From positions 3,168,501 through 3,232,500 of the forward strand of contig NZ_CP107811.1 of assembly GCF_036346105.1 (NCBI RefSeq): a stretch of DNA of 64,000 nt, read 5' to 3'. Position 1 is the first letter of the stretch. The number at the start of each line of letters is the position of its first letter. The position numbers and the translations under genes were made by a program. This document shows positions 2,240-8,544 of the stretch, one piece after another. The notes under the pieces were generated by a model. That model saw only the letters and a program-made list of their open reading frames with translations. It was not told the origin of the DNA and did no database searches. The DNA is from Streptomyces sp. NBC_00539. GTDB taxonomy: Bacteria > Actinomycetota > Actinomycetes > Streptomycetales > Streptomycetaceae.

Positions 2240-2851
2240 TCAGGCTCCGAGCGCGGCGTCCAGGATGCGGGCCCATTGGGTGACGACGCGGGCCCGGCGG
2301 GCCGTGTCGTCGGACAGGACGTTGGCCAGGCCCAGGCCGCGGGCCATGTCGAGGAGGCCCTGCACGGTCTCCCGCACGCCCGGCACCGACTCGTCCGCGC
2401 CGAGCAGTTCGACGGCGATGCGGTGGGTCTCGCGGCCCACACGGGCTTCGAGCCCACTGACGTGCGGGCGCAGCTGCTCCTCGTTGGAGGCGGCGACCCA
2501 CAGCTGGAGGGCGGCCCGGAAGAGGGTTCCGGTGTACAGGTCGACCAGGGCCTCGACCACGGCCGCGCGCGGGGCCGGGCCCGCGTGGAACAGCTCGCGC
2601 AGGGCGGTGGAGCGTTCCTCGGCGACGTGCTCCACGGCGGCCGTGAACAGCTTCTCGCGGGTCGGGAAGTGGTGCTGGGCCGCGCCGCGCGAGACCCCGG
2701 CCCGTTCGGCGACGACGGCGACGGTGGAACCGGCCCAGCCGTGTTCGGCCAGGCAGGAGACGGCGGCCTCCAGGAGGTGGCGGCGGGTCACGCGGCTGCG
2801 GGCCTGCTTGGGTCCGGCGGTCGTCGTCCCGGCGCCGGTCACCGTGCCCAT
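2240..2851 (-). CDS. TetR/AcrR family transcriptional regulator (AtuR-like position)
   Basis: This is a 203-residue regulator. An N-terminal TetR helix-turn-helix spans about residues 20-70 (RHLLEAAVSCLAEHG, then AERAGVSRGAAQHHF, then TREKL), followed by a helical ligand-binding region. The start chosen is the ATG at 2851, because the longer open frame upstream lies antisense over and beyond the hydratase gene. It overlaps the enoyl-CoA hydratase stop by 13 bp, so it is probably translated from the same mRNA as the last gene of the catabolic operon. By analogy with AtuR and similar repressors, it probably represses the operon and responds to an acyl-CoA intermediate. The palindrome at 11170-11197 is its likely operator. 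Regulator identity is firm and the ligand is unknown. Confidence 0.9.
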   Translation of the reverse strand: MGTVTGAGTTTAGPKQARSRVTRRHLLEAAVSCLAEHGWAGSTVAVVAERAGVSRGAAQHHFPTREKLFTAAVEHVAEERSTALRELFHAGPAPRAAVVEALVDLYTGTLFRAALQLWVAASNEEQLRPHVSGLEARVGRETHRIAVELLGADESVPGVRETVQGLLDMARGLGLANVLSDDTARRARVVTQWARILDAALGA

Positions 2852-3576
2852 GACGGGTCCCGGCGCTCGAAGCGGGCGGTGATGCCCTCGCGGGCCTCTT
2901 CGGAGGCGAAGTGGCGGGCCGACAGCTCGGTCAGGGCGGCGCCGTCCCCGGCGAGCGCGGCCCGGACCGGCGCGGTCAGCAGCCGTTTCGTCGCGGCGAG
3001 GGCCTGGGGGCCGGCTTTGCGCAGGCCCGCGAGGACGGGGGCGAGCACCTCGTCGACGTCCTCGCCGTGCAGGGTGAGCAGGCCGATCCGGGCTGCCTCC
3101 GCGGCGCCGAAGGCCTCGGCGGTCAGGAAGTACCGGGCCGCCGCGCGGGGGTCCAGGCGGGGCAGCAGCGGTGCGGAGATGACGGCCGGTACGACGCCCA
3201 GGTGGGTCTCGGTGAAGGCGTACGTGGACTGCGGCCCGGCGGCGGCGATGTCGCAGGCGCCGAGCAGCCCGAGGCCGCCGGCCCGTACGTGTCCGGTGAC
3301 GCGGGCCACGACGGGCGTGGGGAGCTCCGCGATCTCCCGCAGCAGGGCCAGGAAGTCGGCCGGGGCGCAGGGGGACTTGAGATCGGCGCCGGAGCAGAAG
3401 GTGGTGCCGGTGTGGGTGAGCACGACGGCCCGGGCCGCCGGATCCGCACCGGCCCCGGCGAGGGCCGCGCGCAGCTCGCCGACGAGGGCTGCGGAGAGTG
3501 CGTTGCGGTTGGCCGGGGAGTCGAGGGTCAGCGTGGTGATGCCGGCCGCCTGGGCGGCGTGCACGAGTGGGGCCAT
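2839..3576 (-). CDS. Enoyl-CoA hydratase/isomerase family protein (AtuE-like)
   Basis: This 245-residue crotonase-fold enzyme probably hydrates an unsaturated acyl-CoA made by the neighbouring dehydrogenase and carboxylase. It shows the crotonase oxyanion-hole segment TFCSGADLK (around 63) and the GLGLLGACDIAAA stretch (around 102) followed by FTETHLGVVP, which carries a Glu at the usual acid/base position. The ATG at 3576 has the ribosome binding site GGAGGAG. A 242-bp repeat-rich gap separates it from the upstream acyl-CoA dehydrogenase, so it may also have its own promoter. In Atu/Liu operons this slot is filled by the isohexenylglutaconyl- or methylglutaconyl-CoA hydratase. That role is inferred from context. 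Confidence 0.88.
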   Translation of the reverse strand: MAPLVHAAQAAGITTLTLDSPANRNALSAALVGELRAALAGAGADPAARAVVLTHTGTTFCSGADLKSPCAPADFLALLREIAELPTPVVARVTGHVRAGGLGLLGACDIAAAGPQSTYAFTETHLGVVPAVISAPLLPRLDPRAAARYFLTAEAFGAAEAARIGLLTLHGEDVDEVLAPVLAGLRKAGPQALAATKRLLTAPVRAALAGDGAALTELSARHFASEEAREGITARFERRDPSWAR

Positions 3577-3740
3577 GTCTCCTCCGGAGCTCTGCGCAGG
3601 TCGGGGAACCTCCCCGGTGGGGAGGGTATGCGCCCCGGGTCCGCCCGGCCGAAGCCCCCCTGCGGGGCGGCACCCCCGGCGGGTGGTCGGGCGCGGCCTC
3701 GGCGGGCGGGTCGGCCTGCCCGGCCGAGGCCCCGCCCGGG

Positions 3741-3818: not shown

Positions 3819-4982
3819 CTAGTAGGACTTGGGGAGGCCCAGGGTCTGGTGGGAGACGAAGTTGAGGATCATCTCCCGGCTGACCGGGGCGATGCGGGCC
3901 ACGCGGGACGCGGTGATGAGGGAGGCCAGGCCGTACTCGCGGGTGAGGCCGTTGCCGCCGAGGGTGTGGACCGACTGGTCCACCGCCCGGACGCAGGCCT
4001 CGGCGGCGGCGTACTTGGCCATGTTGGCGGCCTCGCCCGCGCCCATGTCGTCGCCCGCGTCGTACAGCAGCGCGGCCTTGCGCATCATCAGGCGGGCCAG
4101 TTCCAGTTCGATGTGGGACTGGGCCAGCGGGTGGGCGATGGCCTGGTGGGCGCCGACGGGCTCCTTCCACACCTGGCGGGTCTTCGCGTAGTCCACGGCC
4201 TTGGCCAGCGCGTACCGGCCCATGCCGAGGGCGAAGGCGGCGGTCATGATCCGCTCGGGGTTGAGCCCGGCGAACAGCTGGAGCAGCCCGGCGTCCTCCT
4301 CGCCGACCAGCGCGTCGGCGGGCAGCCGGACCTCGTCCAGAACCAGCTCGAACTGCTTCTCCGCTGCCTGGAGTTCCATGTCGATGACCGAGCGGGAGAA
4401 CCCGGGCGCATCACGCGGCACGATGAACAGGCAGGGCTTGAGCCGCCCCGACGCGGCGTCCTCGGTGCGGCCGACGATCAAGGTGGCGTCCGCGATGTCC
4501 ACGCCCGAGATGAACACCTTCCGCCCGCTCAGCACCCATGAGTCACCGTCCCGCCGGGCGGTGGTGGTGATGCGGTGCGAGTTGGACCCGGCGTCGGGTT
4601 CGGTGATGCCGAAGGCCATCGTGCGACTGCCGTCGGCCAGGCCGGGCAGCCACGCCCGCTTCTGCGCCTCGGTGCCGAAGCGGGAGATCACGGTGCCGCA
4701 GATGGCGGGCGAGACGACCATCATCAGCAGCGGACATCCGGCGGCGCCCAGCTCTTCGAGGACGATCGAGAGTTCGGTGATGCCACCGCCCCCGCCGCCG
4801 TACTCCTCGGGCAGGTTGACGCCGAGGTAGCCGAGCTTCGCGGCATCGGCCCACAGCTCCTCGGGGTGACGGCCTTCGCGGGCCGTGCGGGCGAGGTACT
4901 CGCGGCCGTAGCGCTGCCCGAGGGCGGCGACGGCCGCGCGCAGTACCTGGTGCTCTTCGGATTCCACAACGGAGTTGCTCAT
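3819..4982 (-). CDS. Acyl-CoA dehydrogenase family protein (AtuD/LiuA-like)
   Basis: This 387-residue FAD flavoenzyme oxidises an acyl-CoA to its 2,3-enoyl-CoA and passes electrons to electron-transfer flavoprotein. The family layout is complete. It has the N-terminal helical domain with GYLGVNLPEEYGGGGG (about 50-66), the middle-domain motif FGITEPDAGSNSHRI (about 138-152), and a C-terminal domain with GGNGLTREYGL near 342-352. Its ATG overlaps the stop of the upstream carboxylase alpha gene by 4 bp (ATGA), so the two are translationally coupled. The substrate cannot be read directly. The carboxylase neighbours suggest a branched or terpenoid acyl-CoA such as citronellyl-, isovaleryl- or a related CoA. 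Confidence 0.93.
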   Translation of the reverse strand: MSNSVVESEEHQVLRAAVAALGQRYGREYLARTAREGRHPEELWADAAKLGYLGVNLPEEYGGGGGGITELSIVLEELGAAGCPLLMMVVSPAICGTVISRFGTEAQKRAWLPGLADGSRTMAFGITEPDAGSNSHRITTTARRDGDSWVLSGRKVFISGVDIADATLIVGRTEDAASGRLKPCLFIVPRDAPGFSRSVIDMELQAAEKQFELVLDEVRLPADALVGEEDAGLLQLFAGLNPERIMTAAFALGMGRYALAKAVDYAKTRQVWKEPVGAHQAIAHPLAQSHIELELARLMMRKAALLYDAGDDMGAGEAANMAKYAAAEACVRAVDQSVHTLGGNGLTREYGLASLITASRVARIAPVSREMILNFVSHQTLGLPKSY

Positions 4983-6937
4983 GCGGGCGTTTCCTCCTGG
5001 ACTACGGCGAGCAGGGCGCCGAATTCGACCTGGTGGCCGGTTGCGGCGTGGAGCGCGGTGAGCGTGCCGGAGGCGGGCGCGACGATGCGGTGTTCCATCT
5101 TCATCGCCTCCAGCCAGAGCAGGGGCTGTCCGGCGGTGACGGCGCAGCCGGGGGCGAGGCCCTCGGCGACGCGCACGACGGTGCCGGGCATCGGAGCGAG
5201 CAGGGAGCCGGGTTCGGTGCGGTCCTCGGGGTCCGCGAACCGGGGCAGCCGGGTCAGGGTGTGGGCACCCGGCGCGCAGTCCACGTAGACCTCCGCCGGG
5301 CCGACACCCCCCTTGTTCGATTTGTGTTTCACGTGGAACACCCGCCGGACGCCGTCCACTTCGAGGGTGACCAGTCCCGGCTCAGCGGCCAGGACCCGGA
5401 CACCGGGGTGGTCGACGGGCTGCGGGGGCCCGCTGCGCGCCGGGTGGTAGGCAACCTCGTATTCGGCGCCGGCCACGGCGTAGCGCCGTACCTGCGGCTG
5501 CGAGCGCAGGTTGCGCCAGCCGCCCAGCCGGGTCGCGAGCCCGGCCTCCGGTCCCGGCGCGGCGTCGGAGAGGGCCGCGGCGAGCGCGGCCAGGGACGCG
5601 GCCCGCTCCGCGTCCGGGGCGGGTTCGGTGAGCGCGGCGAGGTGGCGCTCGTAGAACCCGGTGTCGAGCTGCCCGGCGGTGAACTCCGGGTGCCGCAGGG
5701 ACCGTACGAGGAGGTCCCGGTTGGTCGTCACGCCGTGGATCCGCGCTCCGGCGAGGGCATGGGCGAGACGGCGGACGGCCTCGGCCCGGGTCGGGGCGTG
5801 GGCGACGACCTTGGCCAGCATCGGGTCGTAGTGCACGCCGACGCCGTCCCCGTCCGCGAAGCCGGTGTCCACGCGCACCGCGCCGGGCACGGCGAGGGTG
5901 TGGAGCACCCCGGTCTGCGGGCGCCAGTCCCGGGCGGGATCCTCCGCGTACAGGCGGGCCACGACCGCGTGCCCGGCGGGCTCGGGGGGCGCCGGCGGCA
6001 GCGCCGCACCCTCGGCGATCCGCAGCTGGAGGGCGACGAGGTCGAGGCCGAAGACGGCTTCGGTGACGGGGTGTTCCACCTGGAGGCGGGTGTTCATCTC
6101 CAGGAAGTACGGGCGGCCGTCGGCGGTCACGAGGAACTCGACGGTACCGGCGCCCTCGTAGGAGACGGCCCGGGCGGCGGCCACGGCGGCCTGGTGGAGG
6201 CGCTCGCGCAACGGTCCCGGCAGGCCGGGTGCGGGGGCCTCCTCGATCACCTTCTGGTGGCGCCGCTGGAGCGAGCAGTCGCGGGTGCCGAGCGCCCAGA
6301 CGGTGCCGTGGGCGTCGGCCAGTACCTGCACCTCCACGTGGCGGCCCCGTTCGACGTACGGCTCGGCGAACACCTCGTCGTCGCCGAAGGCGGAGCGGGC
6401 CTCCGCCCGGGCGGCCTCCAGCTCCTCCTTGAGGCGGTCGAGGTCCCGTACGACGCGCATCCCGCGGCCGCCGCCGCCCGCCGCGGCCTTGAGCAGCAGG
6501 GGCAGGTCGGCGGCGGTGACCCCGGCCGGGTCGACGGGGTCCAGGAGCGGCACGCCGGCCGCGCGCACGAGCTCCTTGGCCCGGGTCTTGGAGGCCATGG
6601 CCTCGATGGCCTCGGGCGGCGGGCCGATCCAGGTCAGCCCGGCCTCGCGCACGGCACGCGCGAAGCCGGCGTTCTCGGAGAGGAACCCGTAGCCGGGGTG
6701 CACGGCGTCGGCTCCCGCCGCGAGGGCGGCCCCCACGAGCAGGTCGGCGCGCAGGTAGGTGTCGGCGGGCGCGGTGCCGGGCAGCCGTACGGCCGCGTCG
6801 GCGCGGCGCACGTGCAGGGCGTCGGCGTCGGCATCGGAGTGCACGGCGACGGTGGCCAGGCCCAGGTCACGGGCGGTCCGGAAGATCCGTACGGCGATCT
6901 CGCCGCGGTTGGCGACGAGCAGCGAGGTGATGGTCAT
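4979..6937 (-). CDS. Acyl-CoA carboxylase alpha subunit (biotin carboxylase + BCCP)
   Basis: This 652-residue subunit carboxylates biotin with ATP and bicarbonate and carries the biotin to its partner beta subunit. Domains in order are a biotin carboxylase N-terminus (LLVANRGEIAVR near residue 6), ATP-grasp (GGGGRGMRVV near 160, HVEVQVLAD and CSLQRRHQKVIEEAPAP after it), and a C-terminal biotinyl domain with the acceptor lysine in EAMKMEH about 35 residues from the end. The length fits methylcrotonyl- or geranyl-CoA carboxylase alpha chains. The start is the ATG at 6937. A GTG at 6949 overlapping the beta-subunit stop (GTGA) is an alternative. The segment VFHVKH around residues 533-538 is encoded by a parS-like site and is not typical of the family. 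Confidence 0.93.
   Translation of the reverse strand: MTITSLLVANRGEIAVRIFRTARDLGLATVAVHSDADADALHVRRADAAVRLPGTAPADTYLRADLLVGAALAAGADAVHPGYGFLSENAGFARAVREAGLTWIGPPPEAIEAMASKTRAKELVRAAGVPLLDPVDPAGVTAADLPLLLKAAAGGGGRGMRVVRDLDRLKEELEAARAEARSAFGDDEVFAEPYVERGRHVEVQVLADAHGTVWALGTRDCSLQRRHQKVIEEAPAPGLPGPLRERLHQAAVAAARAVSYEGAGTVEFLVTADGRPYFLEMNTRLQVEHPVTEAVFGLDLVALQLRIAEGAALPPAPPEPAGHAVVARLYAEDPARDWRPQTGVLHTLAVPGAVRVDTGFADGDGVGVHYDPMLAKVVAHAPTRAEAVRRLAHALAGARIHGVTTNRDLLVRSLRHPEFTAGQLDTGFYERHLAALTEPAPDAERAASLAALAAALSDAAPGPEAGLATRLGGWRNLRSQPQVRRYAVAGAEYEVAYHPARSGPPQPVDHPGVRVLAAEPGLVTLEVDGVRRVFHVKHKSNKGGVGPAEVYVDCAPGAHTLTRLPRFADPEDRTEPGSLLAPMPGTVVRVAEGLAPGCAVTAGQPLLWLEAMKMEHRIVAPASGTLTALHAATGHQVEFGALLAVVQEETPA
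5325..5340. other. Intragenic parS-like centromere site
   Basis: The 16-bp sequence TGTTTCACGTGGAACA matches the bacterial parS consensus TGTTTCACGTGAAACA at 15 of 16 positions and is nearly palindromic. Streptomyces carry many parS sites near oriC, where ParB loads, spreads and organises chromosome segregation into spores. This copy lies inside the carboxylase alpha gene, forcing the peptide FHVKH. The match is seen directly, and ParB binding is inferred from the consensus. Confidence 0.82.
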
Positions 6938-6945
6938 CTGCGGGC

Positions 6946-8544
6946 TCACATCCGGAAGACGCCGAAGCCGCCACGGGCGCCCTCGACGGGGGCGTTGTGG
7001 ACGGCCGACAGGCACAGGCCGAGGACGGTACGGGTGTCGCGCGGGTCGATGACCCCGTCGTCGTACAGCCGCCCGGACAGGAACATCGGCAGGGACTCCG
7101 ACTCGATCTGCGCCTCCACGTAGGCGCGCATCCCGGCGTCGGCCTCCTCGTCGTAGGGCCGGCCCTTCGCGGCGGCGGACTGCCGGGCGACGATCGACAG
7201 CACACCGGCCAGCTGCGCGGGCCCCATGACGGCGGACTTGGCGCTGGGCCAGGCGAAGAGGAACCGCGGCTCGTAGGCCCGGCCGCACATGCCGTAGTGG
7301 CCGGCGCCGTAGCTGGCTCCGATGAGGACGGACAGGTGCGGGACGCGGGAGTTGGAGACGGCGTTGATCATCATCGAGCCGTGCTTGACGATGCCGCCCT
7401 GTTCGTACTCCTTGCCGACCATGTAGCCGGTGGTGTTGTGGAGGAACAGCAGCGGGATGTCACGCTGGTTGGCGAGCTGGATGAACTGGGCGGCCTTCTG
7501 CGACTCGGCGCTGAACAGCACGCCTTGGGCGTTGGCGAGGATGCCGACGGGATGGCCGTGCAGGCCGGCCCAGCCGGTGACCAGGCTGGTGCCGTAGAGG
7601 GGCTTGAACTCGTCGAAGTCGGAGGCGTCGACGATCCTGGCGATGACCTCGCGCGGGTCGAAGGGCGTCCTCAGGTCCTCGGGGACGATGCCGAGGAGTT
7701 CCTCGGGGTCGTACAGCGGCTCGGGTGCGGCCGGCGGATCCTGGTACGGCTTGCGGTGGTTGAGCCGGGCGACGATCCGGCGGGCCTGGCGGATGGCGTC
7801 GTACTCGTCGAGGGCGTAGTGGTCGGCGAGACCGGAGGTCCGCGCGTGCATGTCGGCCCCGCCGAGGGACTCGTCGTCGCTCTCCTCGCCGGTCGCCATC
7901 TTGACCAGGGGCGGACCGCCGAGGAACACCTTCGAACGGTCCTTGATCATGACGGTGTGGTCGGACATCCCGGGGATGTACGCGCCTCCGGCGGTGGAGT
8001 TGCCGAAGACGACGGCGACCGTGGGGATGCCGTCGGCCGACAGCCGGGTGATGTCCCGGAAGACGGCGCCGCCCGGGATGAAGATCTCCTTCTGCGAGGG
8101 CAGGTCCGCGCCGCCGGACTCCACGAGGCTGACGCAGGGCAGCCGGTTCTGCCGGGCGATCTCGTGGGCCCGCAGGGCCTTCTTGAGGGTCCAGGGGTTG
8201 CTGGCGCCGCCGCGGACGGTGGGGTCGTTGGCGGTGATCAGGCACTCGACGCCCTCGACGGTGCCGATGCCGGTGATCATCGAGGCTCCCACCGGGTAGT
8301 CGCTGCCCCACGCGGCGAGCGGGGACAGTTCGAGGAACGGCGTGTCGGGGTCCAGCAGCAGCTCGACGCGTTGGCGGGCCAGGAGCTTGCCGCGGCCGAG
8401 GTGGCGGGCGGTGTACTTCTCGCCGCCCCCGCGCAAGGCGCCCTCGTGCTGCGCGTCCAGTTCGGCGAGGCGCTCCAGGGCGGCGGCGCGGGCCGCGGTG
8501 TGCTCGGGCGCGTTCGGGTCGACGGTCGTGGTCAGGCGGGTCAT
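6946..8544 (-). CDS. Acyl-CoA carboxylase beta subunit (carboxyltransferase; AtuC/LiuB-like)
   Basis: This 532-residue carboxyltransferase moves CO2 from carboxybiotin to an acyl-CoA. It has both crotonase-fold halves. The N-half contains VVFGNSTAGGAYIPGMSD and KVFLGGPPLVKMATGEE, and the C-half contains LFLHNTTGYMVGKEYEQGG and GASYGAGHYGMCGRA. The length and these motifs fit the methylcrotonyl/geranyl-CoA carboxylase branch better than propionyl-CoA carboxylase. It overlaps the AtuA-family gene upstream by ATGA and lies 8 bp before the alpha subunit. Substrate choice between leucine-derived and terpene-derived acyl-CoA is not settled by sequence reading alone. Confidence 0.93.
   Translation of the reverse strand: MTRLTTTVDPNAPEHTAARAAALERLAELDAQHEGALRGGGEKYTARHLGRGKLLARQRVELLLDPDTPFLELSPLAAWGSDYPVGASMITGIGTVEGVECLITANDPTVRGGASNPWTLKKALRAHEIARQNRLPCVSLVESGGADLPSQKEIFIPGGAVFRDITRLSADGIPTVAVVFGNSTAGGAYIPGMSDHTVMIKDRSKVFLGGPPLVKMATGEESDDESLGGADMHARTSGLADHYALDEYDAIRQARRIVARLNHRKPYQDPPAAPEPLYDPEELLGIVPEDLRTPFDPREVIARIVDASDFDEFKPLYGTSLVTGWAGLHGHPVGILANAQGVLFSAESQKAAQFIQLANQRDIPLLFLHNTTGYMVGKEYEQGGIVKHGSMMINAVSNSRVPHLSVLIGASYGAGHYGMCGRAYEPRFLFAWPSAKSAVMGPAQLAGVLSIVARQSAAAKGRPYDEEADAGMRAYVEAQIESESLPMFLSGRLYDDGVIDPRDTRTVLGLCLSAVHNAPVEGARGGFGVFRM

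Follow-up and report, generated by a model that had tools for sequence, protein, structure and literature searches.

Why should a centromere site sit inside a metabolic gene, and is it kept there for the sake of the DNA or of the protein? The question is raised by a stretch of 64,000 nucleotides from Streptomyces sp. NBC_00539 (contig NZ_CP107811.1, positions 3,168,501 to 3,232,500; hereafter the window), in which the coding strand of an acyl-CoA carboxylase alpha gene reads TGTTCCACGTGAAACA. The comparisons that follow, all made on sequence, indicate that this element is very probably a true chromosomal parS, one at which ParB would load and which selection maintains at the DNA level. The first-pass annotation had described it as a 15/16 match to parS. 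That count holds against the perfect palindrome; against the general parS consensus given in a review, TGTTNCACGTGAAACA (PMC7022226), however, all 16 of the 16 bases agree, as expected of a chromosomal parS. The one deviation from the palindrome falls at the third position of a conserved Phe codon, where TTC is strongly preferred over TTT in these genes (342 of 344 Phe codons in 24 site-bearing rows). On the plus strand, positions 5325-5340 read TGTTTCACGTGGAACA, the sole match in the window to the perfect palindrome at three or fewer mismatches; at the same tolerance, shuffled windows contained 0.04 matches on average, with 4 of 100 shuffles having one. The outermost bases of the 16-mer vary in relatives, being T or C at one end and A or G at the other.

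Because the variant matches both TGTTNCACGTGAAACA and the parS found within B. subtilis parB, it is an accepted form of parS. Intragenic parS sites are already known: the B. subtilis parB (spo0J) gene is reported to carry the identical coding-strand 16-mer, likewise within a protein gene and bound by ParB (PMC4333373). That site sits in a segregation gene, however, whereas the carboxylase parS lies 402 kb away from dnaA in a gene of metabolism and, unlike the B. subtilis case, comes with codon evidence from a whole clade for selection on the DNA. A literature search yielded no parS in this gene among the titles and abstract openings of the matches listed; supplementary lists of parS positions lie outside that coverage.

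The minus-strand open reading frame confirmed that the site lies inside the carboxylase alpha gene (Table 1), where it is read as TG TTC CAC GTG AAA CA and encodes F-H-V-K-H, residues 534-538 of 652 when the start is taken at the ATG of MTITSLL. This peptide had first been placed in the linker before the biotin domain; it belongs instead to the BT domain, since the Pfam BT_MCC_alpha match spans residues 448-540. That match follows the biotin carboxylase domains and precedes the biotinyl domain (581-645), and the three domains of an MCC-alpha protein are found in a single chain with Pfam scores above the cut-offs. The gene also has the neighbours expected of MCC-alpha, carboxyltransferase beta and acyl-CoA dehydrogenase. 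Among the 25 NCBIfam matches listed for the carboxylase alpha protein, none reached the equivalog cut-off. Judged by the families to which its products belong, the gene set would be that expected of leucine breakdown.

Table 1. Window positions of the site, its flank and the genes around it
Feature	Position	Strand	Basis
Full 16-mer, TGTTCCACGTGAAACA on the coding strand	5325..5340	-	sequence match
parS core, coding strand GTTCCACGTGAAAC, plus strand GTTTCACGTGGAAC	5326..5339	-	14-mer kept by the clade
3' flank, coding strand CACAAATCGAAC; the core ends on its first C	5315..5326	-	row comparison
Host gene, 3-methylcrotonyl-CoA carboxylase-type alpha subunit	4979..6937	-	biotin carboxylase, BT and biotinyl domains
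Acyl-CoA dehydrogenase, following gene in the operon-like run	3819..4982	-	Pfam
Carboxyltransferase beta subunit, gene upstream of the host in the operon-like run	6946..8541	-	Pfam

Across the 7.5 Mb NBC_00539 genome (G000), the palindromic 14-mer GTTTCACGTGAAAC occurs in 29 perfect copies, all between 3,433,459 and 3,891,126, and the genome-wide scan that the first-pass annotation had proposed thus revealed perfect copies surrounding dnaA, which was found at 3,576,232. Exactly two copies have one mismatch, both reading GTTTCACGTGGAAC: the carboxylase site at 3,173,826 and a copy at 3,638,620. The five two-mismatch copies are scattered across the genome, and the pattern read backwards has none. 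One two-mismatch copy, at 3,146,845, lies 27 kb farther out than the carboxylase site, and weak matches therefore do arise by chance in this area. Clustering around oriC and dnaA is what is expected of chromosomal parS, and the carboxylase copy lies outside the dense part of the cluster, with 402 kb between it and dnaA and 260 kb between it and the nearest perfect copy. It shares its side of dnaA with 21 of the 29 perfect copies; in 20 closed streptomycete genomes, parS sites are reported to favour one side of oriC (PMC8743542). Six pairs of copies in the NBC_00539 genome are spaced 19-29 bp apart.

Placing the window near oriC, as had been done from the sequence alone, is thus roughly right as to region, but the distance from dnaA puts it outside the dense parS cluster: the carboxylase site, an outpost, stands at the periphery of the parS region, and the window does not lie beside oriC. 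The same motif serves as parS in S. coelicolor, S. venezuelae and other Streptomyces, with most copies reported near oriC (PMC4852455). In S. venezuelae, 16 parS are reported within about 200 kb of oriC (PMC4852455), and function at 400 kb is therefore an extrapolation. Single distant copies are known, since 23 parS of S. coelicolor are described as central on the chromosome and one as close to a chromosome end (PMC4852455).

By a codon-usage score, only 2 of the genome's own 31 copies with at most one mismatch are flanked on either side by coding sequence within a single open frame. These are the carboxylase site (29.1) and the 3,638,620 copy (32.8), exactly the two that carry the A-to-G variant, and the score, having been trained on five window genes including this carboxylase, is partly circular for the former and not for the latter. 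The next best copy scored 17.8 and has a stop codon inside the site. By the same score, none of the 29 perfect copies has coding sequence on both flanks, which sets the carboxylase copy apart from them. The 3,638,620 copy (L159 1521-1534, G000:C1:3638620-3638633) lies in an FtsX-like gene, a weak label at 24 bits against a cut-off of 25.5, and encodes the peptide GFTWN. In its frame the perfect palindrome would be an in-frame TGA stop, and the variant is TGG. The copy recurs in 6 of the 8 relatives' variant loci that were read, which is not evidence of selection because these loci were picked by the pattern.

The distribution of the carboxylase site was followed in 393 genomes of the genus. 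A pattern search with two mismatches allowed gave a context match in 27 of them, 22 in the carboxylase gene and 5 elsewhere. A protein-based search, which makes no selection for codons, matched 217 of the 393 genomes at E 1e-70 or better, and the loci of the best 50 of these 217 (the best 30 and the next 20) were read. Among the 24 best orthologs (at least 323 bits, a cut placed at the gap between 323 and 296 bits after that gap had been seen), 23 have the exact core, as GTTCCACGTGAAAC in 22 and as GTTTCACGTGAAAC in G188; the other one, G250, encodes FHVAH and has no site. The next 26 orthologs have the site only in G012. Together, the 22 genomes of the pattern search, G173 and G012 bring the genomes known to carry the site to 24 of 393, where the other 167 protein-matching genomes and the 176 that the protein search did not match are covered by the two-mismatch pattern alone. 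Being known in so few genomes, the site is dispensable in the genus.

A further set of 80 named loci includes 79 that cover the stretch (L099, from S. katrae, stops short of it), and only L045, from Streptomyces sp. ISL-87, has the site; the other loci covering the stretch have at least 6 mismatches to the 16-mer. The idea that the peptide accompanies the site was borne out in both sets: L045 is the sole FHVK among the 79 loci, and the site-free sequences among the 50 genus orthologs read FHVA, FHVT or otherwise. G188 has two parS copies 24 bp apart in its carboxylase gene (L020, L148), encoding FHVKHHGMFHVKP, and an added second copy was seen only there; the spacing resembles that of the six NBC_00539 pairs.

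We next consider the codons of the site, which were compared in 24 site rows (23 from the protein search and L045, the G012 piece being left out). The Lys codon of the site is AAA in 24 of 24 rows, whereas AAG outnumbers AAA by 143 to 1 in the six other invariant Lys columns. The Val codon is GTG in all 24, and the 34 other invariant Val columns keep to a single codon in only four cases, all GTC. Changes at the neighbouring codons were counted on a tree of 23 rows, which was built without the site region and from which G188 was also left out for its tandem copy. The codon before Phe has undergone 10 amino-acid changes (among V, L, T, A and M) and no third-base change, always ending in G; of 77 other codons with 5 or more amino-acid changes, 3 likewise show no third-base change. 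Likewise, the codon after Lys has undergone 8 amino-acid changes (among H, Q and R) and no first-base change, always starting with C; a first-base change is also absent from 8 of 96 other codons with 4 or more amino-acid changes. The aligned gene holds four invariant runs of at least 14 bases (17, 16, 14 and 14), of which the site is one. The site thus displays the conservation at the DNA level that is expected of a chromosomal parS, and these codon-level comparisons support the earlier proposal that a centromere site constrains protein sequence.

The same comparisons bear on two other explanations. Selection might keep the peptide FHVK[HQR]xSN for the function of the BT domain, with the parS match as a by-product, and F, H, V, K, S and N are indeed invariant in 23 rows. 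However, synonymous choices that such selection would leave free are fixed (AAA for Lys, GTG for Val), the third base stays G across five amino acids before Phe, and the first base stays C across H, Q and R after Lys. FHVK is, moreover, absent from the 25 site-free orthologs outside the best 24 (58-74% identity), and we regard this explanation as very improbable. It is scarcely credible, too, that the site is a chance match or a functionless relic kept only by a young clade: a single clade carries it and G250 is without it, but codons for the same amino acid differ between row pairs in 20% of their third bases on average, and the codons on both sides have changed many times while the 14-mer has not. 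Protein-level selection and a chance match were both rejected by the codon and tree comparisons.

How the site came to be there was addressed on a carboxylase gene tree of 70 rows. A single change accounts for all 25 site rows (support 79/88; recovered in 80% of 200 bootstrap trees); the branch that unites them with G250 has support 100/97, and G250 falls within the same unresolved base. The site probably evolved where it now lies, through substitutions within a variable part of the BT domain in which F-x-V codons (TTC nnn GTn) would already have contributed part of the motif. A mobile-segment insertion was rejected, and substitution in place preferred, because site-free orthologs align through the stretch at similar length. 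The gene may also have passed between lineages, although one change suffices on a tree that is of the carboxylase gene alone.

The position of the site is also shared among relatives. In the ten genomes with the site and dnaA on one contig, the two lie 402-484 kb apart, with the site always upstream of dnaA. Among the site-free orthologs read, the 13 with a listed dnaA on the same contig are all on the same side, at 431-689 kb, and since they sit likewise, the gene probably held this position before the site arose; lower-scoring rows of the protein search fall outside this comparison, and at least one of them (G300) lies on the other side of dnaA. In the site-bearing genomes that were mapped (G000, G199 and G134), the carboxylase site is the outermost on its side among copies with at most one mismatch, with a gap to the next copy of 297 kb in G199 and 223 kb in G134. 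The carboxylase copy differs from other Streptomyces parS in lying 223-297 kb beyond its nearest neighbour in all three genomes. G199 has 26 copies with at most one mismatch, the carboxylase site included, at 3.81-4.53 Mb, with dnaA at 4.24 Mb, and G134 has 29 copies within one mismatch. Two site-free genomes have fewer, 20 in G171 and 11 in G379. The four variant copies of the site-free G250 lie elsewhere, on a single other contig.

Beyond the core, conservation continues for about 10 bp, which parS alone leaves unexplained. In 23 of 23 rows, the 3' flank reads CRH, then AAA or AAT (once CAT), then TCG AAC. Its conserved codons (5315-5323, minus strand) include rare AT-ending choices, and codon +5 is never GC-ending in the 23 rows, the mean GC3 being 0.945. 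Among the contexts listed, the 3' part was not seen beside other parS copies. This, and a conserved element of about 25 bp that is longer than parS, would fit a palindrome bound by another protein, for example a transcription regulator within the operon, perhaps together with the 3' flank; a TetR-like frame, so labelled by eye, lies inside the minus-strand ORF 2240-3673. However, the core is exactly parS, the other near-perfect copies in the genome surround dnaA, the copies in G199 cluster about dnaA with the carboxylase one among them, and a second parS copy stands beside the first in G188. We therefore consider binding by another protein improbable.

As a genuine parS, the site would be a place where the chromosomal ParB clamp loads and from which it slides into flanking DNA; in S. 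venezuelae, ParB is reported to spread 2.5-3 kb around its sites (PMC12511625). Such loading would create, on the arm upstream of dnaA, a small partition or condensin-loading patch of ParB/SMC at some 400-485 kb from oriC. More tentatively, and as a possibility that we consider rather unlikely, the composite of about 25 bp, parS with an AT-rich flank ending in TCGAAC, could be a dedicated distant centromere outpost, loading ParB and condensin on the parS-rich arm at a nearly constant distance of 400-485 kb and extending arm alignment or tip anchoring, with a metabolic protein recoded at its codons across the clade. The position of an extra parS is reported to matter for fitness in the permissive zone of Caulobacter (PMC5815017); the ectopic parS described there were engineered, whereas the carboxylase site is natural, distant and kept by a clade. 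The locus would provide a clean natural case of a centromere site that shapes the codons of a protein, and even the adjacent amino acids. Moreover, since some relatives carry the site and others lack it, and since it is isolated far from the cluster, it would allow a simple test of the effect of one distant parS on ParB/SMC loading and arm organisation.

Two relatives depart from the common arrangement. In G012, a piece of the carboxylase (residues 445-649; L184, G012:C1:8905000-8920000) keeps the exact parS core and adjoins an acyl-CoA dehydrogenase at 8.91 Mb, with dnaA at 1.98 Mb on the same contig; this truncated piece may be a misassembly. G171, which has no carboxylase site, carries an outlying variant at G171:C1:3164854 (L186 1555-1568), 343 kb from dnaA; it lies near the start of a coding-like frame (LFHVKH) and is possibly an independent outpost.
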